Positions 3,198 through 63,375 of a stretch of 64,000 nt of DNA are shown in pieces. Where the stretch lies: contig CP126203.1 of the NCBI GenBank assembly GCA_030272155.1, forward strand, positions 2,294,001-2,358,000, written 5' to 3'. The notes under the pieces are model-generated. The model worked only from the letters and a program-made list of their open reading frames with translations. It did no database searches and was not told the DNA's origin. Numbering within the stretch: the stretch's first letter is position 1; each line of letters starts with the position of its first letter. Source of the stretch: Tetradesmus obliquus (Eukaryota; Chlorophyta; Chlorophyceae; Sphaeropleales; Scenedesmaceae). The position numbers and the translations under genes are program-made.

Positions 3198-5662
3198 CTA
3201 GCTTGCAGCAGCCTCGCTGGCCACTGCCAGTGGAGCAGCATTGACGTAGCTGCAGGCAGCAGGCAGCAGGCAGCAAGGGAAACACGCCGCATTGCATGAA
3301 TGTCCCCACGCACTCAAAGCAAGATGTCAAGTCGGAATGCAAGGCAGTAGCCTCGCCCAGCTTGAGCAGTTGCATGCACAACGAAGGCAGCCAGTACTCA
3401 CAGCAACAGGCTGAAGAAAGTGACACAACTTGAATTGTTGTGTTACTGAACCAGACAACAACAGTAACAGCAGAAGCAGCGCACCTGAGGTATGTGTTCC
3501 ATAGTATGGCGCATGCATTGACTGCCAGCACGCGCTGCTGAGGAGGCACAGGGGGTTGCTAACAACACCAATAACAGAGGGCAGCAGTTGTTAAAATCAG
3601 AAGCAGCGCACCTGAGGTATGTGTTCCATAGTATGGCGCATGCGTTGACTGCCAGCACGCGCTGCTGGGGAGGCACAGGGGGTTGCTAACAACACCAATA
3701 ACAGAGGCAGCTGTTGTTAAAATCAGAAGCAGCGCACCTGAGGTATGTGTTCCATAATATGGCACATGCGTTGACTGCCAGCACGCGCTGAGGACGCACA
3801 GGGGGTTGCTAACAACACCAATAACAGAGGCAGCTGTTGTTGACAACAGAAGCAGCGCACCTGAGGTATGTGTTCCATAGTATGGCGCATGCATTGACTG
3901 CCAGCACGCGCTGCTGAGGAGGCACAAACATGAAGTTGGCCACATTAACTGTGGGCCAGTACACACTGCCCGTCACAAACAGCTGCGGCAGCTTGTACTG
4001 CACCTGCTGCCAGGCTTCCTGCAAAAGTAACACATGTCGCAACATGTCATATATGTGGTGCGATGTCATGCTGTAGAACAGCACATGCGCGATGATGCAC
4101 ATGGGACAGTGCGAAGCATGGAGCAGCTGCAGCTGATCAGCATGCAGAGTTCACTCTCGTACAGCTTGTGCTCAAAAGGTCTTTAACACGTGTTCCCGCC
4201 TGCATGGCTGAGATCACTTGATGTGAGCGGCTTGGACAGCCTGCCGTAGCCCAGCCTGTACTGCAGCTGTACTGCTTGTCAGAGCTGTACTGCAGCTGTG
4301 CAGTAGCTGTACTGCTTGCCACGGCTGTGCTGCAGCTGCAGTGCAGCTGTAGTGCTTGCCACAACTGTACTGCTTTCCACAACACCTGCACTTACCTGCA
4401 TGCTGCGCCCCTCCAGCAGGCTTGAGTAGAGCAGCACCAACATCGTGCAGCTCATGCTGAACTGCAGCTGTACTGCTTGCCATAGCTGTACTGAGCACGT
4501 AATGCTGGTCGCCTGTGCACTGACCTGTATGCTGCAGCTGCGCCGCTCCAGCAATCAGCAATGGTATGCTTGTCTGAGCTTTACTGCGGCTGGGCACTAC
4601 AGCTGAACTGCTTGCAACAGCTTCGCTTGCATGCTTACATGCAATCCCTCTAGCAGCAACTGCACTGACCTGTATGCTCCGCCCCTCCAGCAGGCTTGAG
4701 TAGAGCAGCACCAGTGAGGTGTAGGTGGGGAACAGCGTGACCTGGCCCACCAGGGACTTGGTGACAGCCTGGCATTCGAAAGTTGTCACAACATCACAGG
4801 GCAGTCAAGCTCAAGGTATATGTGCGCACTTCCAATTGAATAAAAGGTTACCTTTTATGTTGTGCAAGTGTGACCTGTCTTACCAGGGAATCAGTGACAG
4901 CCTGGCCAGGGAGTCAAATGCCATTGAAAGTTGTCACGATGCCACATTCGCCAATGCAGTGCGGTTCATGTGTATGCAAGCGCTGTCCCAGGTCCTCAGC
5001 TACCATCTGGTGCACGCACACAAGTTGTTGGCGCTTTGACTTCAAAAGTAAGGGGAACAGAAGCAGCATGTAAACATGGCTGCAGGTACCAATCACACGA
5101 GATGGGCTATCAAACTGCATGCTTGCAGCTGGGTTGTGCCTGATCGACATGCATCCAGCCTGTAAGCAAATTGTGCAGGCTTGAACTGTTCCACATACTA
5201 GCATCAATGCTGGTTGCTGCCGCAGTGTCACTTGCACAGGGCACAAATGCTGCCACCAGCAAGCCTCACATTCTGCAAAGTCTTGGCCGTGCCAAACTTG
5301 CCATCAAGCCACTGGAAACCCCTGTTGCATGGTGGCCGAGACATGGGAAATGTGGTGAAAATTTTCTTGTTATGCAGGACGTGCAGCTCCCAGTGCTGCT
5401 GCTCTTTTCTACTGTTACAACTGCTGCTGCTCTGCAGTGTGCCTTGCGGCTACATTACGCTGGTGATGGTAACATACTTGAAAAACAAGGGTCCGTGTAG
5501 AGTTAGGCCAATGACCCCGAACCGAGCAGCCCTAGCCACGTCTACGCGCACGGGCTGCCTGTTCCGTTGGCACTGTATCGCTTGGCATGCTGCGTCTCCC
5601 AGAGCCATCAGCGAGCATGACGTCAAAGCAGCCCGATGTATAGGCTTCAAACTCGACAACAT
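3198..5662 (-). CDS. Mpv17/PMP22 family membrane protein
   Basis: Five exons join in frame: 5662-5478, 5321-5270, 4768-4670, 4018-3861 and 3249-3198, giving about 181 residues, normal for the family. Mpv17/PMP22 proteins are small four-helix membrane proteins of peroxisomes, mitochondria or plastids, thought to form or modulate channels. Family marks in order: LGDAACQ in helix 1, RAARFGVIGLTLHGPLFFK, the junction-spanning FQWLDGKFG, VGQVTLFPTYTS, and the C-terminal signature VYWPTVNVANFMFVP followed by R and WNTYLS. The last exon adds YVNAAPLAVASEAAAS and a TAG. Family and splice phases agree at all four junctions. The ATG at 5662 is the first in frame after an upstream TGA, but an extra 5' exon encoding a targeting peptide cannot be excluded. 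Introns 2, 3 and 4 carry partial copies of exons 3 and 4. The organelle is not determinable from the sequence. Confidence 0.9.
3485..3925 (-). repeat. Donor ladder: three extra copies of Mpv17 exon 4 end
   Basis: The last ~65 bp of exon 4 plus its GTGCGC donor and about 60 bp of intron recur downstream. Exon ends fall at 3861 (functional), 3738, 3612 and 3485, a period of 123-127 bp. Each copy encodes LAVNACAILWNTYL and keeps the donor; none has an acceptor. Frame and family length select the first donor. Confidence 0.9.
4385..4945 (-). repeat. Copies of both edges of Mpv17 exon 3
   Basis: Exon 3 ends at 4670. Its 3' edge (LLYSSLLEGRS plus a donor) recurs at about 4394-4450 and, more decayed, at about 4515-4555, both inside intron 3. 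Its 5' edge is echoed upstream at about 4880-4945. Between the 3' copies the intron is filled with short CTGTACTGC-type repeats. Confidence 0.75.
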
Positions 5663-6052
5663 GGCTGTTGACAGCTTGCAGCCTCGCCGTGAAATGTCGA
5701 GAAAAGGTCACCAAGGGGTGCCTGCTTGTCTGACAGTCAACAAACTTCTCAGCTGGACTGAAACAAACAATCAATAGAGATCAAGGGAAACTTCTGCATG
5801 CCTACTCACCAACAGCTGCTGAAGCTCCACCCACACGGTGTAATTCTGGGAGAACCTAAGCCATGCATCTCAGATAACCCACAAGAACCCTAAGTGACGG
5901 GATAAGCTGTCAGATACACTGTTTCCAGATGATCGAAAAGGTTTACCAAACGATTGCCTTCACACCACTAGTTCACAGCTCCAGTTGCTGTTCCAGACCG
6001 CCAGAAATAGACGTTGCTGTCCCTTGACATCTGCGTACACCGCACCAATATA
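5663..6052. other. Spacer between tandem minus-strand genes
   Basis: About 390 bp separate the F-box gene stop from the Mpv17-like ATG. It should hold the 3' end of the former and the promoter of the latter. No TATA-like or other clear motif was recognised. Confidence 0.4.
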
Positions 6053-6176
6053 TCAGCCAGCAACAACGACCTGCTGCTGCTGTTCGTGTGCCAGCATCAA
6101 GTCAAGCTTCAAACCCTCCTCAAACCAGCTGCACTGCTGCTGCTGCTGCTGCTCCAATGAGCCCCAGCACATCCAA

Positions 6177-6207
<31 letters not shown>

Positions 6208-8002
6208 AAGTTGCATCCAGTACCCGAAACAGCTGCTGTCCAGGTACCACCACAGCAGCGGCCAGCAATGCCTCCCGCTGGCTTGCTGCTGCAGCAGCAG
6301 CTGCTGCCTCTGCTGCCTGCTGGGGGCTGCGAGCCCTCTGCAGTGCCGCTGCTGCTGCACCTGCCCCTGCAGCAGCAGACTGGGCGGCTGCATCTGCTGA
6401 TGCCAGGCCAGGCAGCGGCAGCACGAGGCTAGCCCGCAGATCTGCATGACAAGACACTTGCCAGGGTACCTCTGCTGCTGCTGCTGGTGGTGGTGGCGTT
6501 GGTTGAACACCTTCTGGAGAAGTGTCCTGCTGCTGCTGCTGCTGCTGTTGGCTACTCTGGCTGCCTGCCTGCCTGCCAAGCACCACCTGCAGTACGGGGC
6601 GGGGCAGCAGAGGACCCCAGCCCTGATCACTGCTATCCTGCTGCTGCTGCTGCTGCTGCTGCAGTTGCTGCTGCTCTGCTGCTGCAGAGCGCCCTGCCTG
6701 CTGCACTTGCGCCGCCCTACAGCAGCAGCAGCGGAATCAGGTGCAAGTTCAAGGAACTATGAGATGCAGACAGGACATCTCATGTTCTGGTCAGCACAGC
6801 AAGGACGGTCAGGGCCGCGGGCAAGCGGTCAAAGCCTAGTAAGTCACTGGCTGGGTGTGTTAACATGAAGCGGCCAGCGCCACAGCTCTGCTCAGCTGGG
6901 TCAGTTGTAAGCCACACATGAACTACAGAACAGCCCTCCTGCACGTCTGCCGGCTGTAACCACAAAGGGCAACGCACAGGAGAGCTGTTTTGTAGTAGAG
7001 CAACACGCGTCGCGGCTGCCTTGAACATTCGATTGAGTACCAGAGTGCAAGTTCGACTCCAGTCCTCCCTTGAGCTGGGAGGTCCCACCAGTGGCTCATC
7101 CTGCAGCCTTGCTGGAAAGAAAATCGAAAGGAAAGGCATAACGGAAAGGCATACAACTCTACAGCTTCAGTGGGCTCCCCTTGGCTGGGGCAACACCAGC
7201 GGCTCATATGCAGCCATAAAAAAATTCAAGATCAACAACAAGCAGGGAGTCAAATGTAACAGCTCCAGCGCGCTCACCTGGGCTGTGGTCCCACCAGCGG
7301 CTCATCCTGCAGCCATGCTGCCAGCACATGCTCCACAGCACCTGGGTCATCAAGCCTGCAGCAGCAGCAGCAGCAGCAGCAGAAGAGATGTAGACTGAGC
7401 TGGGACGCCAAAATTGCATGAAGGCGTGCTCAGGTGATGTGGCAAGGGCAGAGCACACCACACGCCGCAACTGTGTAATCAGCTGCACACATAGCTACCT
7501 CATCCCATTACCTAAACGCACTTGGCAACGCCTGCATGAAGGCTTGCTCAGCAGTCCCTGACGCAACTGCATAACCCGCTGCAAGCATAAATAACTCACC
7601 CCACTGCATGATCTTACCTGTCAATCGCTTGCATGAAGGCTTGCTCAGCAGCCCCCGACGCAACTGCAACCCGCTGCAAGCATCACTACCCCACCCCACT
7701 GCGTAACCCCACCTGTCAATTGCTTGCATGAAGGCTTGCTCAGCAGCCCCAAGCAGCCTATCCATGTTAGCAGCAGCAGGAGGAGGCACATGCTCAGCTG
7801 CACGTTGACCCCTATAAGCGCCGTGGGCGTCATCTTCCTCGTCGTCATCGCTGGGATTACTCTCGGCAGCGTCATCCACTGATGACGTGTCAGTGACGTC
7901 ATCAACTTGCTCATCTGCCTCCTCAGAGGATGAGCCAGCAGCTGAGTCAGCGTCTTCACTCATACTGCAGCCAGCACCTGTGACACCTCCTGCTGCTGCT
8001 GG

Positions 8003-8037
<35 letters not shown>

Positions 8038-9307
8038 TCGGCTGCTGCTGCTGCTGCCAGTGGTGTGCTGCATGTGGTGCTAAAGCGTCCGGCTGTAGCC
8101 ACTTTGGCACTATTCCACCGCTGCTGCTACTGCCGGCAACGCCGCCGCCAGCAGCAGCTGCTGCTGCGGCTTGGCTGCTGCTGTTGCTGCCAGCAGTGTC
8201 ACTTGCACTACGGCCACCATAACCACCAGCGTCTGTTGCATTTGCAGCTGCCTCTGCTGCTGTCCCGCGGCCCCTAAACCTCGCAAGGCTACTGCCCAGA
8301 GAGGCCCAAAAGCCACCAGCTGCACCCTGCTGCTGCTGCTGCTGCCGGCCACTGCTGCTGCTGCGCTGCCGGCGCCTCCACTGCTGCTGCTGCTGCTGCC
8401 GTACCACAAGCTCCTCCACCCCACGCCCCTGCCGCTGCTGCTGCTGTGTCAGCAGCCGTCCTGCTGCTGCTGCTCCCAGGGCCGCGTCCCGCAGCTGCAA
8501 GCCAAACTCTGCTGTATTCTCCAGTGCAGTGCAGCAGCTGAAGCCTTGGGTGCAGCCGCCAGGCTGTATCTGCATGGCCCCAGATCTCAGCAATGCAGCA
8601 GTACTGGCGAGCTGCTGTGCAGGCACTGCGTCTCCCAGGCCAGCGATGTAGCGCAGTGCGATGTAGAAGCGCAGGTCCTCCTGCTGCTTCTGAAGCTTGC
8701 CGTACATGCGCAGCTGCATGAAGCTGCGGCGATGCAAGATAAGAGATGCGAACAGGATAAATTGTGAGTGTATCGTGTATGTGTGTGTTATGTGAAACAG
8801 GACAGCGCAGACACAGGCATCGCAGAGCTGCCTGAAGCTACCGCGGTGCAGTGCATAAACAGCATTGTGCAGACAGGATGTGGGCTGAAAAGGTGCCGCG
8901 TCTATTGTGTACATGTTGTGCCAGGAACAAGCATGCCAGGTTACATGCAGAACAGGGTGGAGCACTTGAAATTCATCCAGAGAAGCTGCATCAGGTGATA
9001 TGCAGGCCACATCAGCCTCTGAGCCCCACTCAATGTGTGCTAGCATACACAACAACCCTAGTCACCAGCCACCGCTGCACAACCCACGCTGCTCACCGTG
9101 CCACGGGAGCATCTGGGTACAGTGCAAACGTCTGCAGAGCATCTGTAGCCTGCACATGCATTAAGGGGGAGCCCGGTGCCAGCTGATGCTTTGAGGGGCC
9201 CACCCACACCTGCAGCTGCATTGGGGGGTACACAGGGTACCTGCAGCAGTCATACAGCAGCAAATGCACTTGTCAGCATACCGCAGATGACAAGAGTAAT
9301 GAGGGAT

Positions 9308-9340
<33 letters not shown>

Positions 9341-9876: not shown

Positions 9877-9917
<41 letters not shown>

Positions 9918-19400: not shown

Positions 19401-19442
<42 letters not shown>

Positions 19443-37957: not shown

Positions 37958-37990
<33 letters not shown>

Positions 37991-39114: not shown

Positions 39115-39150
<36 letters not shown>

Positions 39151-44111: not shown

Positions 44112-44144
<33 letters not shown>

Positions 44145-44579: not shown

Positions 44580-44584
44580 TGTAA
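44580..44584 (+). terminator. Candidate polyadenylation signal TGTAA
   Basis: TGTAA lies about 150 bp after the methyltransferase stop and before the next gene on the same strand, the expected place for a green-algal polyadenylation signal. Confidence 0.4.
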
Positions 44585-44665
44585 AGTACGGCTCACCTCA
44601 TCATCTTGCGTTGCAATAGTTTATCTAGCCTAGTTCAGGTGTTGGCTGCAGGTGTTTGCCTCACG

Positions 44666-45849: not shown

Positions 45850-45888
<39 letters not shown>

Positions 45889-48138: not shown

Positions 48139-48199
<61 letters not shown>

Positions 48200-49659
48200 C
48201 CACGCTGTTTGTGCGTGAGGTGGTGGAAGTGAAGAACCACTGCCCCTTTGCCTTCAGGTGAGCACCTCGCACAGATAATCAAGAGCAGGTCTGCGGTCAG
48301 CGCACAAACCTGTGTCACCTCAAACAGCAGCTTGGAAGCGCAAGGGCAAAAATGGGCGCACACATGTGTCAACTGGCTTCAGCTGTTGCGCTGCTGCAGG
48401 TCTGCCCTTGTTTGAAGCGTCTAATGCAGATCGAACTTGTGCATCACCCTGAAGCGCAGGTCATAAAGCGCAAAGGCAACAGGGTCGGACGCATGTGTCT
48501 GTCGGCTTCAACTGTTGAGGCTGTTGCGTGATGCAGATTCGACCTGTGTTTGACCGCAGGTTGAAGCGCAAGGGCAAGAAGGGTAAGGTGCATATGGCTT
48601 TTGGCTTCAACTGTTGAGGCTGTTGTCTGATGCAGATTTGACTTGTGTTCGAGCGCAGGTCAAAGCACAAGGGCAAGAAGAGGAAGGTGCACGTCTCATT
48701 TGGCTTCAGCTGTTTGGGATGTGGTTCAAATTGCTTAGATAAATGTGATGCGGTTTGAACCCAAACTGCAGGTCAAAGCGCAAGGGCAAGAAGGGGAAGT
48801 GCATGTTTCATTTGGCTTCAGCTGTTGAGGCTGTTGTCTGATGCAGGTTTGACCTGTGTTTGACCGCAGGTCAAAGCGGAAGGGCAAAAAGGGCAAGGTG
48901 CACGTCTCATTTGGCTTCAACGCGCGCGGGCCTGCGCAGCGCGTGCACCCCCAGTGGGTGCCTCAGCTGCAGATGCACATGCTGGCTACCGGCTGCCAGT
49001 CTGCACTGCTGGTCAGCAGGTGGGTTCGTAGGAATCCTGCAAGCCCGTATTCCTGCAAGCGTGCTCGGTGGTTGGTTCTTCTTGCAGGCATGTGTTGTGT
49101 TGTTGGGGGCAGCATGTGCAGTCGGGTAGAGTAGGTCTAGCAGCAGCGGCAGATGCACATGCTGGCCACTGGCTGCCAGTCTGCCCTGCTGGTCCGCAGG
49201 TGGGTTCATAGGAATCCTGCAAGCTGCATGTCTGCAAGTGTTCTCAGTGGTTGGTTCTTCTTGCAGGCATGTGTTGTGTTGTTGGGGGCATCATGTGCAG
49301 TTGAGTGGAGTAGGTCCAGCAGCAGCCCAGAGTGAAAGTCGGTTCTGTGTGTTGCGCTGCTGTCCTGTTGCTGCTGCAGGTGCGCTGACAGCGGCGTGCG
49401 TGTGTTCCGGCTCTGGAGGGATGACACATACCTGCAGACGATGCTGAAGCTGCTTTCAGTGCTGCAGACGCAGCACGTGCTGCAAGGTGTGCAGCCAAGC
49501 GCAGCAACGTTCAGCAGGCTGCCTGGCTATAGGGCGTTCCTGCATAGGACAGCTACCCTGGCTCGCTCTGCAGAGTGCATAGCAGCAGCAGGCGAGGAGG
49601 TGACGAGCAGGGTGCCTGAAGCCGCAGATGGCTACAACCTGGTCAAGTTCTGGCAGTAG
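44666..49659 (+). CDS. YqaJ-type (phage lambda exonuclease-like) nuclease
   Basis: Nine exons: 44666-44850, 45111-45169, 45512-45582, 45898-about 46090, 46270-46400, 47019-47095, 47463-48257, 48870-49019 and 49380-49659, about 646 residues. The order of motifs is that of the YqaJ family of PD-(D/E)XK alkaline exonucleases: RYVRQESQLWRELHDGMLTT with RLKQALGMH, AWGKAQEAAALHCLLQLFPE, GASPDGLIVH carrying the catalytic Asp, VVEVKNHCPF carrying Glu-x-Lys, and PQWVPQLQMHMLATGCQSAL. The tail VRVFRLWRDDTYLQTML is also typical. Such enzymes degrade one DNA strand from ends for recombination; nuclear copies are common in algae. About 220 Ser/Gln-rich residues are inserted between the Asp and Glu-x-Lys motifs. 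The end of exon 4 is uncertain (46090 fits the phase, weak GTGCTG donor). The ATG at 44666 is the first in the frame of exon 1. The YqaJ genes' presumed viral origin is family knowledge. Confidence 0.85.
45848..45890 (+). repeat. CTG array before a YqaJ acceptor
   Basis: About thirteen CTG triplets followed by CCGCCATGCAG form the 3' splice region for exon 4 (first base 45898). Confidence 0.8.
46290..46925 (+). repeat. Donor ladder after YqaJ exon 5
   Basis: The exon segment coding AGDIPVKLAWGKAQEAAALH and LLQLFPEAA with its GTGCGG-like donor recurs at about 46535-46640 and 46720-46800, with a shorter copy at 46868-46925. The functional exon ends at 46400, the only copy with an acceptor in phase. 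Confidence 0.85.
48310..48905 (+). repeat. Acceptor ladder before YqaJ exon 8, five decoys
   Basis: The exon 8 start (SKRKGKKGKVHVSFGFN) with its GCAG acceptor recurs upstream; AG positions are near 48330, 48459, 48559, 48658 and 48771 before the functional 48869. Period about 100-130 bp. Upstream copies have frameshifts and substitutions that increase with distance. Confidence 0.9.
49138..49205 (+). repeat. Donor-edge copy of YqaJ exon 8
   Basis: The exon 8 end (QMHMLATGCQSALLV plus GTGGGTTC donor) is repeated about 180 bp downstream. The following intron stretch with GCATGTGTTGTGTTGTTGGG is duplicated too. Confidence 0.85.
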
Positions 49660-49948: not shown

Positions 49949-51794
49949 ATGAGTGTTCCAGTTTCAGCTGGCGCCCGTGTGATGGCAGAAGGGAGAGTGG
50001 GCCTGCTCGTGAGGGACGGTACAAAAGTGACCCCCGACACCCGCAAAGGCTTGCTGAGGGTCATCAGGGTAAGCCAATCTTTCTCAACGCTTTAGATCAA
50101 TGTACCTGCAGGCGCTGACGATGAAACTCGCTCCTGCAGACGGAGGATGGGCTACTGCACTTGGAGTGGTGGGAGAGAAAGGATTCGGGCAACGCAGACG
50201 CACCCGAATACGATGAGATCGTGTTCCCTGATGAGGCAGTGTTTGAAAAGGTTAGGATCCACGTCTTGCTCTCCTGGCAGTCTGCTTGGCAGTACAGCAG
50301 TACAGCAGCAGCACCAGCAGCAGTGACTGTTCTTCTGGTGCATTCTCCTGACAATGCTGAACCTGCTGCAGCTGCTGCATTGCGTTACTTCAAGAACCAA
50401 TTGATGAAAATCATTCCCGCATTCATGCATATCCTGAACTCTACAAGTTGGCTGCTTCTTTTGGTAATTGCTCAAGCACATACAGCAGCTGTGTACCGCA
50501 TTGCTGCTGTCTGCTGCAGCCTGCCAAGGCGCCTGCCTGCGTGCTCATGCTGCACTGTCCTGTTTTTGCATTATACATGGCCCGTATGTCTCAGCTGGTT
50601 TCACCAAAGACAAAACTCTAAAGCTTACAACGTGCCGTATGCACCACTGTGCACTGCTGCTGTCTGCTGCAGCCTGCAAAGGTGCCTGCCTGCGTGCTCA
50701 TGCTGCGCTGCCCTGTTTGCCTCACAGTGGCTCATTTGTCTCAGCTGGTTCCATCATATACAACTCCCGAAGCATACAATGTACCGATTGCTCAACACTG
50801 CTGCTGTCTGTTGCAGCCTGCCAAGGCGCCTCCCCGCGTGTTCATGCTAAATGTTGCTGTCATATCTTGCATCACGTACATGACTCACTTGTTTCAGCTG
50901 GCTCCATAACGACAACTACTCAAGCTTTTAAGTTCCCATCTGCACACCGCTACTGCTGTCTGCTGCAGCCTGCCAGGGCACCTCCGCGCGTGTTCATGCT
51001 GCGCTGTCCTGATTTGCATCATACGTAGCTCATTTGTCTCAGCTGGTTTCACCATAGACAACATCTCAAGCTTATTAGATAACGTACCGTTTGCACAACA
51101 CTGCTGCTGTCTGCTGCAGCTGCCAAGGCGCCTCCCCGCGTGTTCATGCCAAGTGTTGCTGCCCTGTTTTGCATTATACATGGCCCATATGTCTCAGCTG
51201 GTTGCACCAAAGGCAACTGCTCAAGCTTATAACGTACCGTATGCACAACTGTGCACTGCACCTGTCTTCTGCAGCCGGCCAAGGCACCTCCGCGCGTGTT
51301 CATGCTGCGCTGCCCTGTTTTGCATTTACAATGGCTCAGTTGTCTCAGCTGATTCCATCACATATAACGCACTGTATGCACAACTTTGCACTGCTGCTAT
51401 CTGCTGCAGCCTGCCAAGGCGCCTCCGCGTGTGTTCATGCTGCGCTTCAAAGAGCAGTCAGACAGGGACAAGCTCTTCTGGTGAGGCCAGCAGCAGCAGC
51501 AGCCAGCAGCAGCGGCAGCAGCAGCAGCAGCCAGCAACAGCAGTGCGGATCTTCTGAAGTGGCAGCTACTTGGCTACAACCGGTTGTTGTGAGTGTCTGA
51601 ACAATTGCCCATATGCTGCTGCGTATGGTGCTGTCGTTATGCACTCAGCAGCAACCGTTCAGAGCAACGAGCTTGAGCAGGGGGTGCATTTTTGTGCACT
51701 GAGGAACTCTAAACGGTGCGCATGATGGCCCCTGCAACCTACCCTTTTGCGCACCTGCTCCGCGTTTGGGGCCACTCCTCATCCAACGTGCCGC

Positions 51795-51833
<39 letters not shown>

Positions 51834-52231
51834 GCTTGCAGGATGCAGGAGCCATCCGAGGCTGGGGACGATGACTTCTGCAGGAGGGTGAACAGGGCCA
51901 TCAACACACCCATGGGTGCGTAAAAACTACTGGCAGCAGCAGCAGCAGCAATAGTAGTAGTGTTTCAAGCGCAAAGAGCGGGGGTCCTGTTGAAACAACA
52001 GCCGCGGCGGGTCATGCACGCAGCCGAGGGCGGCAGCAGGATTGCCCCAAGTTGCTCGAAAGGTGCTTAGCTCATATGCGTTTTGTGATTCAAGCACGCG
52101 ACTGCTGCTGCTGCTGCCGCCGCAACTCGTTATGAGTGCCCTGCAGGTGATGACATGGAGGATGAAGGGCCTGATTCAGACCTTCCCCAAGAGGTGCAGC
52201 TCATATGCATTCAATAATTCAAGCGACTGCA

Positions 52232-52264
<33 letters not shown>

Positions 52265-55200
52265 GCAACTCATCCTAATGTATGCAGGCGTTGATATGGA
52301 TGACGAGGGGCCTGATTAGACTCTCCCCAAGAGGTGCAGCTCATATGCATTCAGTAATCCAAGCAAGCAACTGCTGCTGCTGCTGCTGCTGCTGCAACTC
52401 ATCCTAATGTATGCAGGTGTTGACCTGGAGGATGAGGGGCCTGATTCAGACCTCCCGCAGGAGGTGATCAGCTCAGATGCGCTGCTGAGGGGACACGTGT
52501 CGCTGTGAGTGACGCTAGTAGACTCGTTGGAAGCCAGCAGCAGTAGCAGCAGCAGCAGTTTCATTGGGAGCCAGCAGCAGCAGCAGCACCACTTGAGGCA
52601 GGAGATTCATTAGTCCTGCTGTTTGGGCTGCATTCATAGAAGCATGCGGCAGAGCAAGTTTGCTTCTGTTTTTAGCCGCTGCCATCCTCGCCAGCCATAT
52701 TGTTGGTACTTATGATGTTCTGTGCTTCTTGTGCTTTGATGCAGTGCGCCTGGTGCTGGCACGTCCATGGAGGCGGGTGACAGCGTGGGGCTGGTGCCAA
52801 CAGGGCCAGGCCAACAGCCGCTGGCACCTGCACAGCTGGCAGCACTGCTCAGGTGAGGGCGCAAACCAGCCGGGGATTGTTCCCACTTTCGCCCTTTGGT
52901 TTGCGGAAAACTATTGAATTGCTGGTGAGCTGAGATAGCTGAGATAGGAGAGGACTACAGGGATACAACGCAGCAATTTCGGCTAGCTGGTGTTTGCAGC
53001 GCTGCTCGGGTTGCATGAGGCAGTAGTCTGGTCATTTGGCAACAGGCCCTGGCCAGCAGCCGCTGGCACCTGCACAGCTGGCGGCACTGCTCAGGTGAGG
53101 GCGCAAACCAGCCGGGCATTGTTCCCACTTTCGCCCTTTGGTTTGCGGAAAACTATTGAATTGCTGGTGAGCTGAGATAGGAGAGGACTGCAGGAACACA
53201 GCGCAGCAGGTTTGATTATTTTGGTGTTTGCAGCGCTGCTTGGGTGGCATGAGGCAGTGTTCTGGTCAATCTGGCAACAGGGCTAGGCCAGCGCCGCTGG
53301 CACCTGCACAGCTGGCGGCACTGCTCAGGTGAGGGCGCAAACCAGCCGGGCATTGTTCCCACTTCGTCCTTGGTTTGCGGAATACTATTGAATTGCTGGT
53401 GAGCTGAGATAGGAGAGGACTGCAGGGACACAACGCAGCAGGTTCGGCTATGTGGTGTTTGCAGCGCTGCTTGGGTTGCATGAGGCAGTTCTCCGGTCAT
53501 TCTGCCGACAGGGCCAGGCCAGCAGCCGCTGGCACCTGCACAGCTGGCAGCACTGCTCAGGTGAGGGCGCAAAACGGAACATGCTGGAGTTGGTTTTCAC
53601 TCATCCCATTTGTTTGCTCAATACATTTTCTGCACTGATGAATCAGGAAAGGGCAGGGCTGCAGCGACACAGCGCAGCAGGTGTTGTGAAGATTTGGCCG
53701 TGGCAGCGCTGCTTGAGCTGTCTAAGGGCAACGTTTGGGTGGTTCTGGTGTTCAAGGAGCGCGATGCGCACAGCAGTGGGGTTCACCATCTGCGGCAGCA
53801 GCAGCAGCAAATTTTAAGATGCGCGGGTGTTTCCAGCACCATGTGTCCGCTGCGTGCCTGTGTGCATGTGTACCGCCTGCGCTGTAACATGGCAGGCGGT
53901 GCCGGCGGCCCGGCCCCAGGTAGCAGCAGCACTGCACGCATCTCAAGTCGACACCTGCTGTGCCTGCTGCCTGCTGCCTGTACCCCGTAATAAGTTGACT
54001 CTGCAGCGGCATGGCAGGCGGTGCCGTCGGGTGCACCCCAGGCGCAGCAGCGCTGGAAGCATTTGTGAACGACACCTGCTGTGCCTGCTGACTTACTCCT
54101 GGTTGATTTGGCTTTGCAGCGGCAGGCAGGCGGTGCCGGCGGCCCTGCCCCAGGCACAGCAGCGCTGCCACATGTGCAATTGATACCTGCTGTGTCCTGC
54201 TGCTTGCACTCTTTTTTCACTCACTTTGCAGCGGCATGGCAGGCGGTGCCGGCGGCCCCGCCCCAGGCGCAGCCACAGACCCTGGAGCCTCGCTTGCTGC
54301 TGCGCTGATGGCAGCAGTGGCGCGGCGGCAGCAGCAGCAGCAGCAGATGCGCGACATGGCGGTGGCGCCTGGCCCCGGGCTGCAGGAGGTGCTCAAGCCT
54401 GAGGTGCTGGGCCCACTGCTGCAGGACCCCGAGGTGTGTTACAAAACTGTTGTTATTATTGATTTTGTTCACTTTGAGATCAATGTGTAACAGGTGCCAT
54501 GGCGGCGGTGGCGCCTGGCCCCGGGCTGCAGGAGGTGCTGAAGCCTGAGGTGCTGGGCCCGCTGCTGCAGGACCCCGAGGTGCGTTATAGAAGCGTTTCT
54601 TGGTCCAAAAAACATTGACAAAGCAATGATATTTTATGTAACAGCTGCCATGGCGGCAGTGGTGCCTGGCCCCGGGCTGCAGGAGGTGCTAAACAAAGCA
54701 TGCCTAAGCTCGCTTTCTCTCCTAGATGATGTGTATACTGCCCTGATTGCGTGCAGGTGCTTGAGCGGCTGTCTGCCTACCTGCCGTAGGGGCAGCGCAG
54801 CAGGGGCGCGCTGCTAAGCAAAGCATGCACACAGCTCCACACTCCCTTTTTGAATGATGTGTCTACTGCGTCAAACGGCTTGCAGGTGCTGGAGCGGCTG
54901 TCTGCCTACCTGCCGGAGGAGCAGCGCAGCAGGGGTGCACTGCTGGAGCTGGCGCACAGCTCGCTTTCTCTGCTAGATGATGTATCTACTGCCCTGATTG
55001 CCTGCAGGTGCTGGAGCGGCTGTCTGCCTACCTGCCGGAGGAGCAGCGCAGCCGGGCCGCCCTGCTGGAGCTGGCGCACAGCCCCCAGTTTGCGCAGCAG
55101 CTGGCCACCTTCAGCGGCGCCCTGCAGACCGGGCAGCTGGACCTTGCCCAGTTCGGGCTGCAGGCGCAGGCGAGTTACTGGTGTATGTGTTGATTGGTGA

Positions 55201-56278
55201 AAAGGTCGGTGTGTGCATGCTTGTGGTTTGTGCAGCAGCTGGCCACCTTCAGTGGGGCGCTGCAGACCGGGCAGCTGGACCTTGCCCAGTTCGGGCTGCA
55301 GGCGCAGGCGAGTTACTGCTTAGCAGTGCTATCTTATTGTATTGATTCTATCCATTGGTGTTATAATATGTAGAAAATAGGTGTTGCAGTTATTGAGTGT
55401 GTCAATTGTACCATAACCTTTGTTGATAGCGCGGAAAGGCTTGCGGTTTGTGGAGTCATGTTTGCGCAGCAGCTGGCCACCTTCAGTGGCGCGCTGCAGA
55501 CTGGGCAGCTGGACTTGGCGCAATTTGGGCTGCAGGCACAGGCGAGTTACTTATGTATGTTATGATTGGTGAAAAGGTCGTTGTGTGCATGCTTGTGGTT
55601 TGCGCAGCAGGCTGGCCACTGTCAGTGGGGCGCTGCAGACCGGGCACCTGGACCTTGCCCAGTTCGGGCTGCAGGCGCAGGCGAGCACCTGTCAAATCTG
55701 TTGTGAAAGAGCTTGCGGTGTAGGGGTGTAGGCGTGTTGTTGCGGGATTCATGCTGCAGACTGGGCAGCTGGACCTTGCCCAGTTCGGGCTGCAGGCGCA
55801 GGCGAGTTACTTTCATGTTTGTTATGCCACTTTCTTGTGTGTGTGATGCAGTGAAAAGGTGGCTGCGCAGTTATTTGCGGTTTGTATATCCCTGTCTGCT
55901 GTCTCGGGATTCACACTGCAGACTGGGCAGCTGGACCTGCTCGGTTCAGGCGCAGGCATGTAATTAAACTTAAGATGGTTTTGTATGAAGAAGGTTGTTG
56001 CGCAAATGCTTGCGGTTTGTGCGTCCATGTTTGCTGTTGCGGGAGTTGTGCTGCTAACTGGATGCAGCTGAACTTACTGACAGGCAGGCTTCAATCGGAG
56101 GTGCCACACTTGTTCACTTTTCCATGTACTGCCAACAATGTAACTTGTGCTTCTGCTGCTGCTTGCACTACTGCCGCTTGCGCTGCTGCTTGTATTGCTG
56201 CTGCAGGGCTTCACAGTGGCTGACTTCCTGAGGGCTATCCAGGACCTCGTTGACAGGGAGCAGCAGCAGCAGCAGTAG
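49949..56278 (+). CDS. RPN13: Proteasomal ubiquitin receptor RPN13/ADRM1
   Basis: Nine exons join in frame: 49949-50068, 50140-50250, 51410-51480, 51842-51915, 52417-52504, 52745-52852, 54232-54433, 55008-55169 and 56207-56278, giving 335 residues, the usual length. RPN13 sits on RPN2 at the proteasome cap, binds ubiquitin through its Pru domain and recruits the deubiquitinase UCH37 through its C-terminal DEUBAD domain. Pru motifs: VTPDTRKGLLRVIR, LLHLEWWERK, EIVFPDEAVFEKV-like, PPRVFMLRFKEQ, LFFWMQEPSEAGDDDF spanning exons 3 and 4. DEUBAD: LGPLLQDPEVLERLSAYLPE, LAHSPQFAQQLATFSGALQT and GFTVADFLRAIQDLVDRE. All phases agree. Intron 8 uses a GC donor (CAG/GCGAGT). About 1 kb of coding sequence is spread over 6.3 kb because most introns are filled with partial copies of the neighbouring exons. 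Confidence 0.93.
50505..51409 (+). repeat. Acceptor ladder before RPN13 exon 3, six decoys
   Basis: CTGCAG acceptors followed by the exon 3 start (PAKAPPRVFML) occur with AG ending at 50519, 50672, 50816, 50968, 51119, 51274 and 51409. Spacing 135-155 bp. Only the last runs on into KEQSDRDKLFW with a donor. The intron part (a phrase with GTCTCAGCTGGTT and CAAGCTTATAACGTACCG) is repeated in each unit. Confidence 0.93.
52140..52470 (+). repeat. Acceptor ladder before RPN13 exon 5
   Basis: Three copies of the exon 5 start (GVDLEDEGPDSDLPQEV and variants) with GCAG acceptors ending at 52146, 52287 and 52416. The second has an in-frame TAG. The last two units also carry a CTG array. Confidence 0.9.
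52800..53565 (+). repeat. Donor ladder after RPN13 exon 6, three decoys
   Basis: The exon 6 end (GPGQQPLAPAQLAALL plus AG/GTGAGG) recurs with exon ends at 53094, 53328 and 53560, after the functional 52852. The unit is 232-242 bp, the longest in the window, and includes about 155 bp of intron with CCCACTTTCGCCCTTTGGTT. Confidence 0.93.
53890..54290 (+). repeat. Acceptor ladder before RPN13 exon 7
   Basis: The exon 7 start (GMAGGAGGPAPGA) is repeated at about 53889-53930 (acceptor lost), 54007-54055 and 54120-54170, before the functional 54232. Confidence 0.85.
54490..55010 (+). repeat. Exon 7 donor-edge and exon 8 acceptor-edge copies in RPN13 intron 7
   Basis: The exon 7 end (AVAPGPGLQEVLKPEVLGPL plus donor) is copied at about 54497-54582 and, truncated, 54648-54692. 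The exon 8 start (VLERLSAYLPEEQRS with GCAG) is copied at about 54757-54810 and 54886-54962. Both kinds of ladder share one intron, converging towards its middle. Confidence 0.85.
55170..55175 (+). other. Non-canonical GC splice donor of RPN13 intron 8
   Basis: Exon 8 ends ...GCGCAG at 55169 and the intron begins GCGAGT. The next exon starts at 56207 after CTGCAG. No GT near this point keeps the conserved LQAQGFTVADF reading, so a GC-AG intron is the simplest model. Confidence 0.75.
55225..55960 (+). repeat. GC-donor ladder after RPN13 exon 8, five decoys
   Basis: The exon 8 end (LQTGQLDLAQFGLQAQ) with the GC donor recurs with exon ends at 55307, 55541, 55680, 55801 and 55955. Four keep GCGAG; the last reads GCATGT. 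Upstream parts of the exon are lost progressively in later copies. Confidence 0.9.
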
Positions 56279-57484: not shown

Positions 57485-60471
57485 ATGCTGCAGCAAAGAC
57501 TGGCCTGCCGGGGTCGTCCTTCGCAGCAAACCCGCCCGTTCCTGCCAAACGCTGGCGCATTCGCACCGCACCCTTCACGTGCAGCATCTCAGACATTAGT
57601 GGAACCCGTATTGCAAAGCGGTGACGTGTATGGGCAATTGGCACATGCAGCTGGCGCCACAGTAGCAACAGCAGTAGGCACAACACAGCTTGGCAGGGGC
57701 CTAATTGTCAGCAGGGACATCGACTCTTCCAGGCAGCCGCTGGTGTCAGTCCCGGTGCAGAACGCTCTCGTGATAGCAGACGACCCTGTCGGTTCAATTA
57801 GCATATACAGCGATAGAGCGCACAGGAGATGGCAGGAGGTCAATGGGGAGCTGCCAGAGCTGCTGCTGGAGTTCCTGCAAGGTAACAGCAGCGTCCACAG
57901 CACCCTCTTCATAATATCAAATCTTGCTATGTGGACAGTTGTTGTATTGCATCTTGTTTGGCATTCAAACACATGAAGGTGCGCACATCCACCGCATGTC
58001 CTGCAAGTTGGCGCCAATTCGGGCTCTTCCTGCTGCTGCCACTGCAGCCACTCCCACCCAGCACAGCACACAGCTTCCTGCAAGCAGAAATTCGCACCAG
58101 CTGCCACCTCAAACCTCATATCTTCCTACTGCTGCAGGCGATGCGCGCTGGGACATCCGCATGGCTGCCTGGCTGCTGTATGTGAAGCAGATGGCAGCAC
58201 AGCCTGGCAGCCTGCCGCTGTGGCAGGCCTACCTAGGGCTGCTGCCGCAGGAGCAAGACATGTGCTGCCTGCTCAACTACAGCAGGGCAGAAGCGGCAGA
58301 GCTGCAGCTGCCAGGGCTCGTGGTGAGACGCCTGGTTTGAATCTTTGTTGGCGTAAACACAGCCAGCATGGGCTGTCGGCGCGACATATGCTGCCTGCTC
58401 AACTACAGCAGGGCCAAGGCGGTGGAGCTGCCAGGGCTGGTGGTGAGCCCTCGTTTGGAGCTGCCTTGTTTAAACACTGCTCGCAAAGCATGGATAGACG
58501 GTGTTGGGCAGGGCATGCGCTGCCTGCCTGCTGAGTCACATCAGGGCTGAGGCTGCTCTGCACGACATGCTCAGCCTGTCTTCATCTTGACTTGTACTGC
58601 CTGTGTACTGCTGCTGTACTTTCTTGCAGGCTGAGGCCGGAGTACAAGATGACTGGGCTGCCTACCTGCATGGCAAGTACCTGCACTACAAGAGCGGCAG
58701 CCTGGCGCCACTTAGTGTTCACTTGTACTGCCCGTGTACTGTCATTGTACCTCATTGTACTGCCTTGCAGGCTGAGGCCGCAGTACAAGCTGATTGGGCT
58801 GCCTACCTGCATGGCAAGTGCCTGCACTACAAGAGCGGCAGCCTGGCACCACTTTAGTATTCATTTGTACTGCTGCTGTACTGCCATTGTACTGCCTTGC
58901 AGGCTGAGGCCGCAGTACAAGCTGATTGGGCTGCCTACCTGCATGGCAAGTGCCTGCACTACAAGAGCGGCAGCCTGGCACCACTTTAGTCTTCCTTTGT
59001 ACTGCTGCTGTACTGCCATTGTACTGCCTGGCAGGCTGAGGCCGCAGTACAGGCTGATTGGGCCGCCTACCTGCAAGGCAAGTACCTGCACCACAAGAGC
59101 GGCAGCCTGGCGCTACTTAGTCTTCATTTGTACTGCCATTGTACTGCCAATGTACTGCCTTGCAGGCTGAGGCCGCAGTACAAGCTGACTGGGCTGCCTA
59201 CCTGCAAGGCAAGTACCTGCACTACAAGATCGGCAGCCTGGCGCCACTAAGCCTTCATTTGTACTGCCATTGTACTGCCAATGTACTGCCTTGCAGGCTG
59301 AGGCCGCAGTACAAGCTGACTGGGCTGCCTACCTGCAAGGCAAGTACCTGCACTACAAGATCGGCAGCCTGGCGCCACTAAGCCTTCATTTGTACTACTG
59401 CTCCTGTACTGCTGCTGTACTGCCTTGCAGGCTGAGGCCGCAGTACAAGCTGACTGGGCCGCCTACCTGCATGGCAAGTACCTGCACTACAAGAGTGGCA
59501 GCCTGGCGCCACTAAGCCTTCAATTGTACTGCTCCTGTACTGCCATTGTACTGCCTTGCAGGCTGAGGCCGCAGTACAAGCTGACTGGGCCGCCTACCTG
59601 CATGGCAAGTACCTGCACTACAAGAGCGGCAGCCTGGCGCCACTGAGGCTCAGCGGCAGCCTGGCGGAGAGCTTGTGGGCCATCAGCATGGTGCGCAGCA
59701 GGACGTTTTCAGGTGAGGGAGAACCTTGGAATGTTTTTTGATTCAAACCTGTTAAATGTGATGATTGCCGCACCAAAATGTGCTACCCGCTGACTTCAAA
59801 CATCACCTGTTTGTTGCAAGCCTCCGCGTGCCTGGCTTGAAATGTATCGATGCATTCTCGCCCTGCTGCTGGTGGCCTTGCCGGTCCTGCTGCTGGTGGC
59901 CTTGCCGGTCCTGCTGCTGGTGGCCTTGCCGGTCCTGGTGCGGGTGAAGCTGCTGTTGGACCTGCCAGTCCTGCTGACACAGCGCTGCTGCTGCTGCTGC
60001 TGATGCAGAGGACATGGCTGGCGAGTGCCTCACCCTCATGGTGCCCTACGCTGACCTGGCCAACCACAGCTCTGACAACAACAGCACATGCTGACGCACT
60101 GGCCTGCTGCTGCTGCTGCTGCTGCAGAGGACATGGCTGGCGAGTGCCTCACCCTCTTGGTGCCTTATGCTGACCTGGCCAACGACAGCTTCGACAACAC
60201 ACACATGCTGACACACTGACCTGCTGCTGCTGCTGCTGCTGCTGCTGCCACCCTAGAGGATATGGCTGGCGAGTGCCTCACCCTCATGGTGCCTTCTGCT
60301 GACCTGGCCAACCACAGCTTCGACAACACACACCTGCTGATGCACTGGCCTGCTGCTGCTGCTGCTGCTGCTGCTGCAGAGGACATGGCTGGCGAGTGCC
60401 TCACCCTCTTGGTGCCTTATGCTGACCTGGCCAACCACAGCTTCGACAACACACACCTGCTGATGCACTGG

Positions 60472-60524
<53 letters not shown>

Positions 60525-61681
60525 AGAGGACATGGCTGGCGAGTGCCTCACGCTCATGGTGCCTTATGCTGACCTGGCCAACCACAGCTTTGACAACAAC
60601 AGCACCTTCTGCATGGCCAGGGATGCCAAGAGGTGTGAGCTCATCTTGTGAGCTCATCTTGTTACCCACAGCGTGCGGTCTGAAGATATAGCGCATTGTT
60701 GCTGCTTTCAACGGTCCCATGATCAGCACATTCGCGTCTGCTGCTGAAACCACCGCGGAAGACAGCAAGCAGTGGCGATGTTACATACCAGCCGTTACGC
60801 GGCAGGTTCCACCTGAGCTGCCATGCGCGCTGCTGTGTGGGCGTTTGCTGGCTGTTTTTTCACACTGCTGTTTTTACATCCTGACACACTGCTGCTGCTG
60901 CTGCTCCTGCTGCTGCTGCTGCTGCTTGCAGCTTCCAGCTGCAGTCGCTGCGGCCGCTGGCTGCTGGCGAGGAGCTGACCATCTCTTACGGCGCCACCAA
61001 GCCCAATGCGGAGTGCCTGAGGGACTACGGCTTTGTGGTGCCTGGTGGGTGCTGCTGTGGTGCTTTTCTTTCAGCTGTTGCGCACTGGTTGCATAACACC
61101 AATTCTAGCTGCAGGCTGCAGATGGCTGTGGTGCTTTTGTTTCAGTTGCTGCGCACTGTCTGCATGACGCCGAACTCCTCTGGCTGGGCATCGACATCTT
61201 TGCAGCGTTGGCATCTTTTGTGTGTCAGGTGCTCGCAACTGGAACAGTTTCTGCCTTGTGCAGTGGTGTGAGCGGCTACCTTTTCAAGCATGCCATGGCT
61301 GTGTGGTGCCTGGCGGATGCTGCTGCAGCTGGCTGTGGTGCTGTTGTTTCAGCTGTTGCATCACACTGGCTGCATGACCGCCAATCTTACCTGCCTGAGG
61401 GAGTACGGCTTTGTGGTGCCTGGTTGGTGCTGCCGCATCCAGCTGTGGTGCTTTTGTATCAGTGCACATAGCTGCATCACACTAATATTGGATGGCTGGG
61501 GGCATCGCCACCTCTGCAGTGTCTGCGTGCTACGCTCTTGCGTAAGGTGCTAGCAGTGGATGTTTTATGCCTGGTGCAGTGGTGTGAGCAGCAGGCCTGT
61601 CAAGTATGCCATGTGCTCCTGCTGAATGTGCTGCGCAGGCAACCCCTGTGATAGGGTGTACTTCACCAAAAGCGGCGAAGC

Positions 61682-61723
<42 letters not shown>

Positions 61724-62866
61724 CGATGAGGAAGATCCTCTGCCGAGGTTGAACCCTGTGTCACTGCTGCAGGTGGGTGGGCTCTGCTGCTTTGACTGCG
61801 TAGCATGGCCTTCTGCGGTTGATCGCCAGCTCAGGACACATTCAACCTGCAGCAGGGGCCAGGGGCCACCATGTCAATGCTTTACAGCAACAGCATTGAG
61901 CCGTGTAGAACCCGCAGGTTAATGGTGCCTTTGCCTGGCACAATGCCTGGCACATTGGCCTGATGGCACTTGAGCACAACACACTGGTTGAAAGCATGCA
62001 GCGCACAGGCCACATTACAGGGTAGTGTTCAGCACTGCGCAACATCAGCGTGTACAATGTGAATGATCTTGAAACCCTGAACTCTTGCCCTGGAACCCAA
62101 AAAAATACCGTGCTCCTGCAGGCGCTGAGCTTCACTGGTGACCTGTCAAACAGAGACATCAAGCCGCAGCAGCACACCTCACCCCTGACAGCAGAGCAGC
62201 AGCTGCGCCTTGCACGCCGCAGATCCGCGCTGCTGTCAATGCCCATTGCGAGCCCTCCAGCCGCCGCCAGCGGCCGCAACAGCAGCAGCAGCAGCAGCAG
62301 CGGCGCCGGCGGTGGGGGTCTGTTTGGGTGGATGGATGCAGCCACGCAACCTTGGACCCCCACTGGCAGGCCTGATGCAGAGCCTCTGAGTGCTAAGCAG
62401 GTGGGCGTATGTACTACGGTAGTACCGTGCATTATGCAGCATTGCAGACAGGTGTTCTGTCACATGCCTTGTCTTCGCATGGCCATACCAGGATGATGCA
62501 GGGCAAGGTAGTTGGGCATTTCGCTGCAGCACGTGTAGCACCACGCGCTGCAGCTGTAGTTATAACTTGGTGGGTAGGTGAGAAAGCCTTCAAGCACTGC
62601 ACTTGATCTGGTGGTAGTGGTGCGGCTGCTGCTGCTGCTGTAGGCCGAGTTCACAAGCCAGTTCAACATGCAAGTTGCCCTAGCATGCTTAGCTGCATGT
62701 CGAGGCGCAGGCATGCAATATTGTGCATGTCACAGTCCATTGTTGGGCGGTTGCAACAACCCGCACAATGCCGTCTGTGCCGGTTGCCCTTGAGCCGATC
62801 CAGGGCGTTGGTTGACCAGGATATCACAAGTCTGCCCACGTATCTCTGCATGCGCCCCTCTGCTGC

Positions 62867-62907
<41 letters not shown>

Positions 62908-63375
62908 CAGGTGCAACAGGAGCGCGCCGCCGTGCAGCAGCTGCAGCAGCTGCTGCTCCAGCAGCTGGTGCGGCTGCCCACATCTGCAGCACACGACGAG
63001 GAGCTGCTGCAGCAAGCGGCAGAGATAGCAGCCAGCAGCAGTAGCAGCAGTAGCGGCAGCAAAACTTCTGGCGGCGGCAGCAGCAGCAGCAGCAGCAGCA
63101 GCAATCTGAGCGTGCCGATTGCAGCCGGGGAGCTGCCATTACTTGATCAATCAACACTGCCACAGCAGCAGCAGCAGCAGCAGCAGTGGAGGGCCAGTGC
63201 TGCCGGGCATGCCAGCAGCACAGCAGCCGCAAGTGCAACAGCGGATGCAGCAGCAGTGGCGGCCAGCCCTCGCCTGCAGACTGCTGTGAGGGCCAGGCTA
63301 GAGCAGAAGCTGCTGCTGCGGGAGGCTGTGGGTGTGCTGATTGTGTATGATGAGTTCCTGGCACGGAACTTCTGA
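57485..63375 (+). CDS. SET-domain protein-lysine methyltransferase, Rubisco LSMT-like
   Basis: Eight exons join in frame: 57485-57881, 58138-58322, 59562-59712, 60527-60632, 60932-61044, 61639-61772, 62122-62400 and 62911-63375, about 609 residues. The N-terminal ~35 residues are basic and Ser/Ala-rich, like a plastid transit peptide. The split SET domain shows GRGLIVSRDID, WQAYLGLLP, then VPYADLANHSFDNNS with the SAM-binding NHS, and GEELTISYG with the catalytic Tyr, followed by LRDYGFVVPGNPCDRV. This is the arrangement of Rubisco large-subunit methyltransferase relatives, which trimethylate lysines in plastid or cytosolic proteins. The C-terminal ~290 residues, with Ser and Gln runs and helices (RARLEQKLLLREAVGVLIVY), take the place of the substrate-binding region. 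The target is unknown. Introns 2 and 3 consist almost wholly of acceptor-edge copies of the exon that follows. Confidence 0.88.
58378..58555 (+). repeat. Donor-edge copies of SET gene exon 2
   Basis: The exon 2 end (DMCCLLNYSRAEAAELQLPG with GTGAG donor) is copied at about 58381-58445 and, heavily decayed, 58512-58560. Confidence 0.75.
58625..59561 (+). repeat. Acceptor ladder before SET gene exon 3, seven decoys
   Basis: Eight near-identical GCAG acceptors end at 58629, 58770, 58902, 59034, 59165, 59296, 59430 and 59561. Successive spacings are 141, 132, 132, 131, 131, 134 and 131 bp. Each unit has about 85 bp of exon start (AEAAVQADWAAYLHGKYLHY) and about 46 bp of intron rich in TGTACTGC. 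Only the last copy continues into the full exon and a donor. Copies differ by few substitutions, implying recent expansion or homogenisation. Confidence 0.95.
60000..60600 (+). repeat. Acceptor ladder before SET gene exon 4, four decoys
   Basis: The exon 4 start (EDMAGECLTLMVPYADLANH) recurs after AGs ending at 60008, 60127, 60256, 60379 and 60526 (functional). Each acceptor is preceded by a CTG array that lengthens towards the real exon, to about 17 triplets at 60472-60523. Period 119-147 bp. Confidence 0.93.
61285..61435 (+). repeat. Donor-edge copies of SET gene exon 5
   Basis: The exon 5 end (CLRDYGFVVPG plus GTGGGT) is echoed at about 61386-61432 (LREYGFVVPG with a donor changed to GTTGGT) and as a shorter remnant near 61293-61330. 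Confidence 0.7.
61681..61722 (+). repeat. AGC array encoding poly-Ser in the SET protein
   Basis: About thirteen AGC triplets in exon 6, after the NPCDRVYF motif, encode an unbroken Ser run. Confidence 0.85.

Follow-up and report, generated by a model that had tools for sequence, protein, structure and literature searches.

In the green alga Tetradesmus obliquus, the edges of coding exons recur in tandem within the adjoining introns as ladders of partial exon copies, here called decoys, that lead away from the edge apparently used in splicing. We analyzed a 64-kb stretch of contig CP126203.1 (positions 2,294,001-2,358,000; the window) together with 20 random 10-kb stretches (200 kb) of the 104.66-Mb, 17-contig genome, a test set of 317 introns. 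The ladders are confirmed as genuine and not a product of chance. They probably reflect recurrent tandem duplications of about 130 bp across coding edges, tolerated as splicing behaves as if exons were defined first. A first-pass annotation of the window had described tandem duplication across splice junctions in most genes, an interpretation that our analysis supports in part.

Genes were modeled with a self-training gene finder of our own scripting, trained on about 291 kb of the 104.7 Mb and applied to 264 kb, with loci L001-L008 serving for training only. At convergence, its consensus was CAG/GTGAG for donors and TGCAG/G for acceptors (the slash marks the exon-intron boundary), with a median exon of 133 bp and a median intron of 256 bp. 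The finder often mistakes inner copies for exons, and 41 decoy-like exons were deleted by rule. The CYP710, RPN13, and ASNS models are spliced alignments to real proteins, and the SET model was built partly by hand. Near pairs with more than 60% microsatellite and matches of less than 40 or 50 bases were dropped before counting. CAG/CTG triplet runs are very numerous across the window, encoding poly-Q, poly-A, and poly-S in predicted coding sequence and occurring in introns too.

Near-direct self-matches make up 28.0% of the window and 16.6% of the random stretches (range 0 to 53% each). Polarity was tested on both sides of each exon with 60-base edge queries, excluding queries more than 40% masked and exons shorter than 35 bases. 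Copies of 3′ exon edges lie in the downstream intron in 49 of 278 cases versus 8 of 280 upstream, and copies of 5′ exon edges lie in the upstream intron in 43 of 286 cases versus 13 of 286 downstream. Antisense queries (1/1130) and shuffled queries (0/1130) give almost nothing, and one other intron of the same gene gives 4/1096. Eighteen of the 21 wrong-direction matches fall in exons no longer than 120 bp, short enough for the two edge queries to overlap. The first-pass claims that exon-edge copies fill introns, here large parts of them, with donor copies downstream and acceptor copies upstream, are thus borne out.

A copy of a flanking exon edge is present in 73 of 317 introns. A separate tally, with longer queries on the intron side only and low-complexity decoys removed, gave 184 decoys at 104 of 598 edges (17%). 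Among models with at least six edges, to which the per-gene count was limited, 26 of 37 across window and sample carry at least one ladder, so the phrase "most genes" holds by this measure but not by edges or introns. The window alone has ladders in six of nine such models, one of the six merging two genes that are both laddered. The earlier figure was at least ten of 13 window genes; the present count covers the larger models only and lacks an edge at 28066 that was lost to the low-complexity filter. Ladders are very unevenly distributed among genes (chi2 114.7, p 4e-10), from 11 of 20 edges in a CYP710-type gene to one of 34 in a putative ABC-transporter-like gene in L028, and eleven models have none. 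In the four curated genes, 41-74% of intron bases lie within local arrays, almost all of them anchored at exon edges. The curated window genes and their ladders are as follows.

17437-24001, minus strand: CYP710-type sterol C-22 desaturase gene, 11 exons, modeled on the P0001 alignment, with Pfam p450 on P0001.
23740-24001, 22720-22900, 22275-22365, 21887-21997, 21582-21663, 20909-21030, 20378-20503, 19842-20087, 19071-19252, 18210-18359, and 17437-17527, minus strand: CYP710 exons.
22958-23271, minus strand: acceptor ladder of CYP710 exon 22720-22900, decoys 22958-23016, 23085-23143, and 23229-23271, absent from P0001.
21083-21492, minus strand: ladder at the acceptor of CYP710 exon 20909-21030; its four decoys lie 110, 236, 358, and 469 bp from the edge.
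17584-17719, minus strand: acceptor ladder of the last CYP710 exon, 17437-17527, decoys 17584-17622 and 17681-17719.
49992-56275, plus strand: gene for the RPN13/ADRM1 proteasome ubiquitin receptor, with ladders at 7 of 16 edges and arrays holding 74% of its intron bases; P0121 has Pfam Rpn13 domains.
50520-51311, plus strand: ladder at the acceptor of RPN13 exon 51410-51480; its six decoys lie 135, 291, 441, 593, 737, and 890 bp from the edge.
52147-52348, plus strand: ladder at the acceptor of RPN13 exon 52417-52504, made up of decoys 52147-52208 and 52290-52348.
53037-53560, plus strand: donor ladder of RPN13 exon 52745-52852, decoys 53037-53094, 53272-53328, and 53503-53560, step about 235 bp.
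53888-54160, plus strand: ladder at the acceptor of RPN13 exon 54232-54433; its decoys lie 112, 225, and 347 bp from the edge.
54504-54693, plus strand: ladder at the donor of RPN13 exon 54232-54433, made up of decoys 54504-54579 and 54649-54693.
54757-54960, plus strand: ladder at the acceptor of RPN13 exon 55008-55172; its decoys lie 122 and 251 bp from the edge.
55226-55957, plus strand: donor ladder of RPN13 exon 55008-55172, five decoys.
57651-63375, plus strand: gene for a SET-domain protein, modeled by hand and with the gene finder, with ladders at 4 of 14 edges; its decoy-free part has Pfam SET PF00856.
58630-59519, plus strand: ladder at the acceptor of SET exon 59562-59712; its seven decoys lie 131, 265, 396, 527, 659, 791, and 932 bp from the edge.
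60011-60462, plus strand: ladder at the acceptor of SET exon 60529-60632; its four decoys lie 147, 270, 399, and 518 bp from the edge.
58383-58443, plus strand: decoy lying 120 bp downstream of the donor edge of SET exon 58138-58323.

Comparison with proteins supports the earlier proposal that the outermost copy at each edge, the one next to the rest of the exon, is the one used. CYP710, RPN13, and ASNS together carry 57 decoys on 28 edges, as counted in the tally confined to the intron side. A two-sided edge test in these three genes gave 27 right-direction matches versus two wrong-direction ones (CYP710 11:0, RPN13 7:2, ASNS 9:0), and the two exceptions sit in RPN13 exons of 71 and 88 bp. 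The T. obliquus protein P0001 is identical to the spliced CYP710 exons of the window at 541 of 542 positions, and the T. obliquus RPN13 protein P0121 (OEZ86_009133) matches at 316 of 317; neither contains decoy repeats. The internal CYP710 junctions agree, with few exceptions, in seven proteins from other genera. For ASNS, the T. obliquus protein P0155 is identical at 558 of 562 positions, and almost all internal junctions recur when proteins from other genera are aligned. The RPN13 exon start at 52417 is found with P0121 and P0122, both from the species itself, and with P0128. P0122 is a full 323-residue RPN13 built from contigs of at most 1182 bases, which cannot span a gene of more than 6 kb, and therefore looks like a decoy-free cDNA. 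A Top6A/SPO11-like gene in L023, assembled without its decoys, aligns over residues 2-226 to the archaeal Top6A 2zbk with small gaps. The RPN13 exon ends 54433 and 55172 are our choice over those of the aligner; the functional donor at 55173 looks like a GC donor (GCGAGT), where the aligner used 55163 and a 6-base exon. P0154, a public T. obliquus ASNS entry, carries the decoy L011:4343-4408 as an exon, which P0155 and four aligned orthologs lack. Ladders can therefore mislead gene prediction.

The ladder step has a preferred size, a property absent from the first-pass annotation. From the real edge to the first decoy, the median distance is 130 bp, with 74 of 91 first steps within 80-160 bp, and successive decoys are a median of 131 bp apart. 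In CYP710, RPN13, and ASNS, 23 of 28 first steps measure 95-153 bp and the other five, at 221-267 bp, are about double. One to seven decoys per edge correspond to two to eight copies, in keeping with the 2-8 copies and units of about 95-240 bp reported earlier. The exon part exceeds 90 bp in just seven of 159 copies despite longer exons. Its length is anticorrelated with that of the intron part (about -0.6), each being roughly half of the unit. Decoys of one edge share their exon breakpoint to within 3 bp in 54 of 114 pairs versus 9.8% at random, and a look at base composition around the breakpoints found no motif. Tandem Repeats Finder and the regular steps describe head-to-tail tandem arrays with shared period and breakpoints. 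This structure, with its orientation and position, fits the earlier view of repeated tandem duplication across a coding edge. The claim that similarity falls with distance survives only as a weak trend, the nearest decoy being the more similar at 29 edges and the farthest at 17 (p = 0.07).

We found that the decoys are mostly relics that decay neutrally. Functional edges and decoys differ by 5.6/5.4/14.0% at codon positions 1/2/3, and decoys differ from one another by 8.0/8.0/13.2%. A stop codon occurs in 12 decoys (764 changed codons), and about 13 are expected under free decay, as calculated from 360 amino-acid-changing codons. The decoy splice sites are largely intact, with GT at 47 of 65 donors and AG at 81 of 85 acceptors, and many score no lower than the 10th percentile for real sites (46 of 65 donors, 70 of 85 acceptors). 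Of 150 decoys, 94 match through the splice site into the intron and 56 do not.

The arrays straddle exon edges beyond what random duplication and selection would give. Of 95 arrays with matches of at least 50 bp, 72 touch an exon edge, 7 are intron-interior, 7 exonic, and 9 intergenic, as the first-pass annotation had predicted for junction-centered arrays relative to exon and intron interiors. Random placement of the same unit size gives an edge-to-interior ratio of 0.78 on the present introns and 0.58-1.8 on array-free introns, an edge share of 0.37-0.64; the observed excess has a binomial p of 6e-10 against an edge share of 0.6. Among arrays with identity of at least 88%, 28 of 30 are at edges, and the four curated genes have 23 edge versus two interior arrays. 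With Tandem Repeats Finder, arrays of period 60-250 number 30 at edges, 4 interior, 3 exonic, and 2 intergenic, and three of these four interior arrays, reclassified post hoc, are ladder pieces. Minisatellites of period 30-50 bp do not share the preference (1 edge, 8 interior; Fisher p 3e-5 versus period 60-250, without the reclassification). The sample is small and arrays of one gene are not independent. The longer visibility of the exon part may inflate the edge excess, though in our judgment not this far. Elsewhere in the sample, a 40-bp minisatellite of about seven near-identical copies (L011:8738-9027) lies inside an ASNS intron, clear of exon edges, and an intergenic satellite-like array (L016:6955-10000) has a period of about 311 bp and 9.6 copies.

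The phenomenon is not, as had been supposed, strictly one of splice junctions. Copies of the last coding bases also lie past 8 of 31 predicted stop codons, with 0 of 31 in antisense. One of the eight is a false end within the SET ladder, the step is no more than about 50 bp in two others, and the predicted coding end in L012 may itself be a copy. The sole protein-verified case is ASNS, with a step of about 162. At start codons copies occur in 3 of 22 cases, one of the three false. Splicing itself is probably not the cause, because about one third of decoys are exon-only and copies lie past some stop codons. In L012 (7395-8225), the coding end with stop codon and 3′ flank is present in three copies, the later two downstream. 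An in-frame coding array in L026 (6005-6552; 114 bp by 4.8 copies, 92%) encodes a 38-residue repeat at the predicted C-terminus, with a unit of the size found in exon-edge ladders.

Further ladders in the window are listed below.

46541-46923, plus strand: donor ladder of exon 46270-46400, putative Rab3GAP catalytic-subunit-like gene, three decoys.
48564-48820, plus strand: ladder at the acceptor of exon 48870-49019; its three decoys lie 98, 211, and 310 bp from the edge.
41680-42079, plus strand: copies of the end region of exon 41242-41615, putative TrmA-like gene, 41680-41744 and 42039-42079.
3485-3800, minus strand: ladder at the donor of exon 3861-4018; its three decoys lie 123, 249, and 376 bp from the edge, and the unit is private genome-wide.
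7414-7655, minus strand: ladder at the donor of exon 7713-8723; its three decoys lie 95, 192, and 310 bp from the edge.
37452-39273, minus strand: nested-ladder region from the gene-finder model only, exact exons uncertain, decoys 38009-38045, 38381-38430, 38523-38572, 38775-38824, 38892-38926, and 39064-39096.

In the explanation that we consider probable, a stretch of about 95-160 bp that holds a coding-exon edge and adjoining intron would duplicate in tandem, and the array would then grow. Duplications that damage the reading frame would be lost. A duplication at a single edge would be harmless if the outermost copy stays in use, leaving the inner copies intronic, where they would decay as neutral DNA while the outer copy remains constrained. 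Splicing would then have to judge exons and not introns, because the outermost sites always give the longest intron and the shortest exon, even though most decoy sites fit the consensus nearly as closely as real ones. Most inner sites are intact and many score like real ones, so the choice of site must rest on context. Exon definition, unlike intron definition, predicts use of the outermost site at both ends (principle in the portion of PMC3488318 drawn on here). Such a filter explains the polarity and the survival of the ladders but not the size peak or the scarcity of interior arrays.

Several points weigh against this explanation. Exon-only decoys number 56 of 150, although simple duplication with decay should leave the intron part alignable; their count varies with the cut (29 of 71 edges, 69 of 134 decoys, 56 of 150 decoys). 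They are barely more diverged than the copies that run through the splice site (9.1 versus 7.7%), with a third-position divergence of 0.157 versus 0.130 (134 decoys, stricter cut). Synonymous differences are in excess of what neutral decoys would give (about 252 versus about 152 for the functional lineage, by arithmetic), and 13 of 139 decoys have third-position changes only, where 6 are expected. In RPN13, the aligner took part of an exon from decoy 52147-52193 for the diverged orthologs P0123-P0126, used 53512-53560 or 53526-53560 for P0125 and P0126, and drew the last 45 bases of exon 54232-54433 from decoy 54535-54579 for all seven proteins. Both copies encode the same residues in this last case, and the outermost was assigned; proteins cannot pick among near-identical RPN13 copies because the copies encode almost the same residues. 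For these ambiguous segments the outermost copy is preferred, as using it takes no additional jump. Our own gene finder supplied most of the gene models, and thresholds were chosen as the analysis proceeded. The edge preference itself lacks an explanation, selection alone being insufficient.

We see two candidates for the edge preference, seeding in exons through recombination-based repair and renewal on a conserved edge. As a working guess, duplications may start in exons, where alone repair from the homolog would find a match between diverged chromosomes, and finish by end-joining in the intron. An exon-edge-directed process of this kind would copy a nucleosome-sized stretch (about 130 bp) straddling the boundary into the neighboring intron or 3′ flank, seeded where the homologous chromosomes match (exons) and end-joined where they do not (introns). 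It would also explain the exon-only copies, and introns would grow in this way; we offer it tentatively, as a possibility that falls short of likely. Under renewal, which we regard as rather unlikely, edge and interior duplications would be equal, and unequal exchange or gene conversion would re-copy the selected edge while interior arrays dissolve. Fresh exon parts beside unalignable intron parts, one ladder with decoys of differing ages and breakpoints (ASNS 6782-7142), and the surplus of synonymous-only differences all speak for it. However, fresh arrays should then be frequent in intron interiors, where they are rare, and the stop frequency in decoys is the same as without conversion.

Neutral random tandem duplication with selection would make the edge excess only apparent, introns being short and the constrained exon part staying visible longer. 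It predicts the polarity, the use of the outermost copy, the neutral decay, and the copies past stop codons, all of which are seen, and intron similarity is indeed lost faster than exon similarity. We nevertheless consider it unlikely: 72 of 79 arrays at edges far exceeds the expected share, as do the 28 of 30 at high identity, Tandem Repeats Finder, even though it requires similarity over most of the unit, returns 30 edge to 4 interior (1:8 at 30-50 bp), and random duplication offers no reason for a narrow step. That the copies are in use, as alternative or mutually exclusive exon ends under selection, appears very improbable. The decoy exon in P0154, the many decoys with good splice sites, the usable site pairs that the gene finder found around 41 decoy-like exons, and the 13 decoys with third-position-only differences would fit such use. 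Against it, P0155 and the four aligned orthologs lack that exon, P0001 and P0121 have no decoy repeats, and stops and codon-position divergence fit free decay overall; alternative tandem exons under coding constraint were rejected on the latter grounds (12 stops with about 13 expected; 8.0/8.0/13.2%). Assembly error is scarcely credible. Tandem arrays are a recognized weak spot of assemblies, but decoys have diverged from the real edge by as much as about 20%, mostly non-identically, and are present at 104 of 598 edges spread over many contigs. The ASNS decoy peptide is also present in the public uniref entry P0154, possibly from the same assembly.

We recognized no description of such ladders in the open-licence full-text literature, a coverage that leaves out most subscription papers. 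The nearest precedent is a human minisatellite that in 1995 was reportedly found to supply several donor sites, in the gene 6-16/IFI6 with a unit of about 12 bp. There too the repeat unit carries the donor, so that one exon edge has several candidate donors; that case involves one gene and a short unit, whereas T. obliquus has units of about 130 bp, donors and acceptors, and many genes. In intron gain by tandem duplication, an exon segment bearing AGGT is copied; a 2010 report by Lehmann et al. is said to relate to this process. It shares tandem genomic duplication at splice sites with an unchanged mRNA, but there the duplicate creates a new intron between exonic copies, while in T. obliquus the copy enlarges an intron and sits inside it. 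We rejected intron gain, as the first decoy is typically about 130 bp away from the edge that it copies and not at the opposite site, in introns with a median of 430 bp and with up to seven decoys per edge (introns not inspected singly).

Intron growth is commonly attributed to transposable elements. Vaughn and Bennetzen in 2014 reportedly dealt with small tandem duplications. Introners, as presented in the part of PMC9860276 used here, are dispersed element families that create introns, in algal genomes included, and resemble the ladders in that intron-related sequence is multiplied in many genes. A whole-genome search, which skips very common words, with one unit each of the SET, RPN13, and 3.5-kb ladders returned 8, 5, and 4 matches, all in the own ladder. 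An introner family was rejected, given these private units and the 4/1096 matches to another intron of the same gene. As far as tested, the first-pass view that neither intron gain nor introners account for the arrays stands. Small tandem duplications arise from paired nicks or patch-mediated break repair according to the passages of PMC8355091 considered here; these are likewise short tandem copies and a plausible source of the first ladder copy, but the same passages do not describe exon-edge centering or long ladders.

The preferred duplication size at coding edges, if genome-wide, suggests a bias in duplication or repair that we have not seen described. The decoys mislead annotation, as the public ASNS entry illustrates. 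Each ladder is a natural competition, with several near-identical splice sites in series of which the outermost is apparently used, and the question of exon versus intron definition becomes directly testable in an alga. If the edge-directed process is true, the whole genome of T. obliquus would offer a natural test that many near-perfect inner sites are ignored in splicing.

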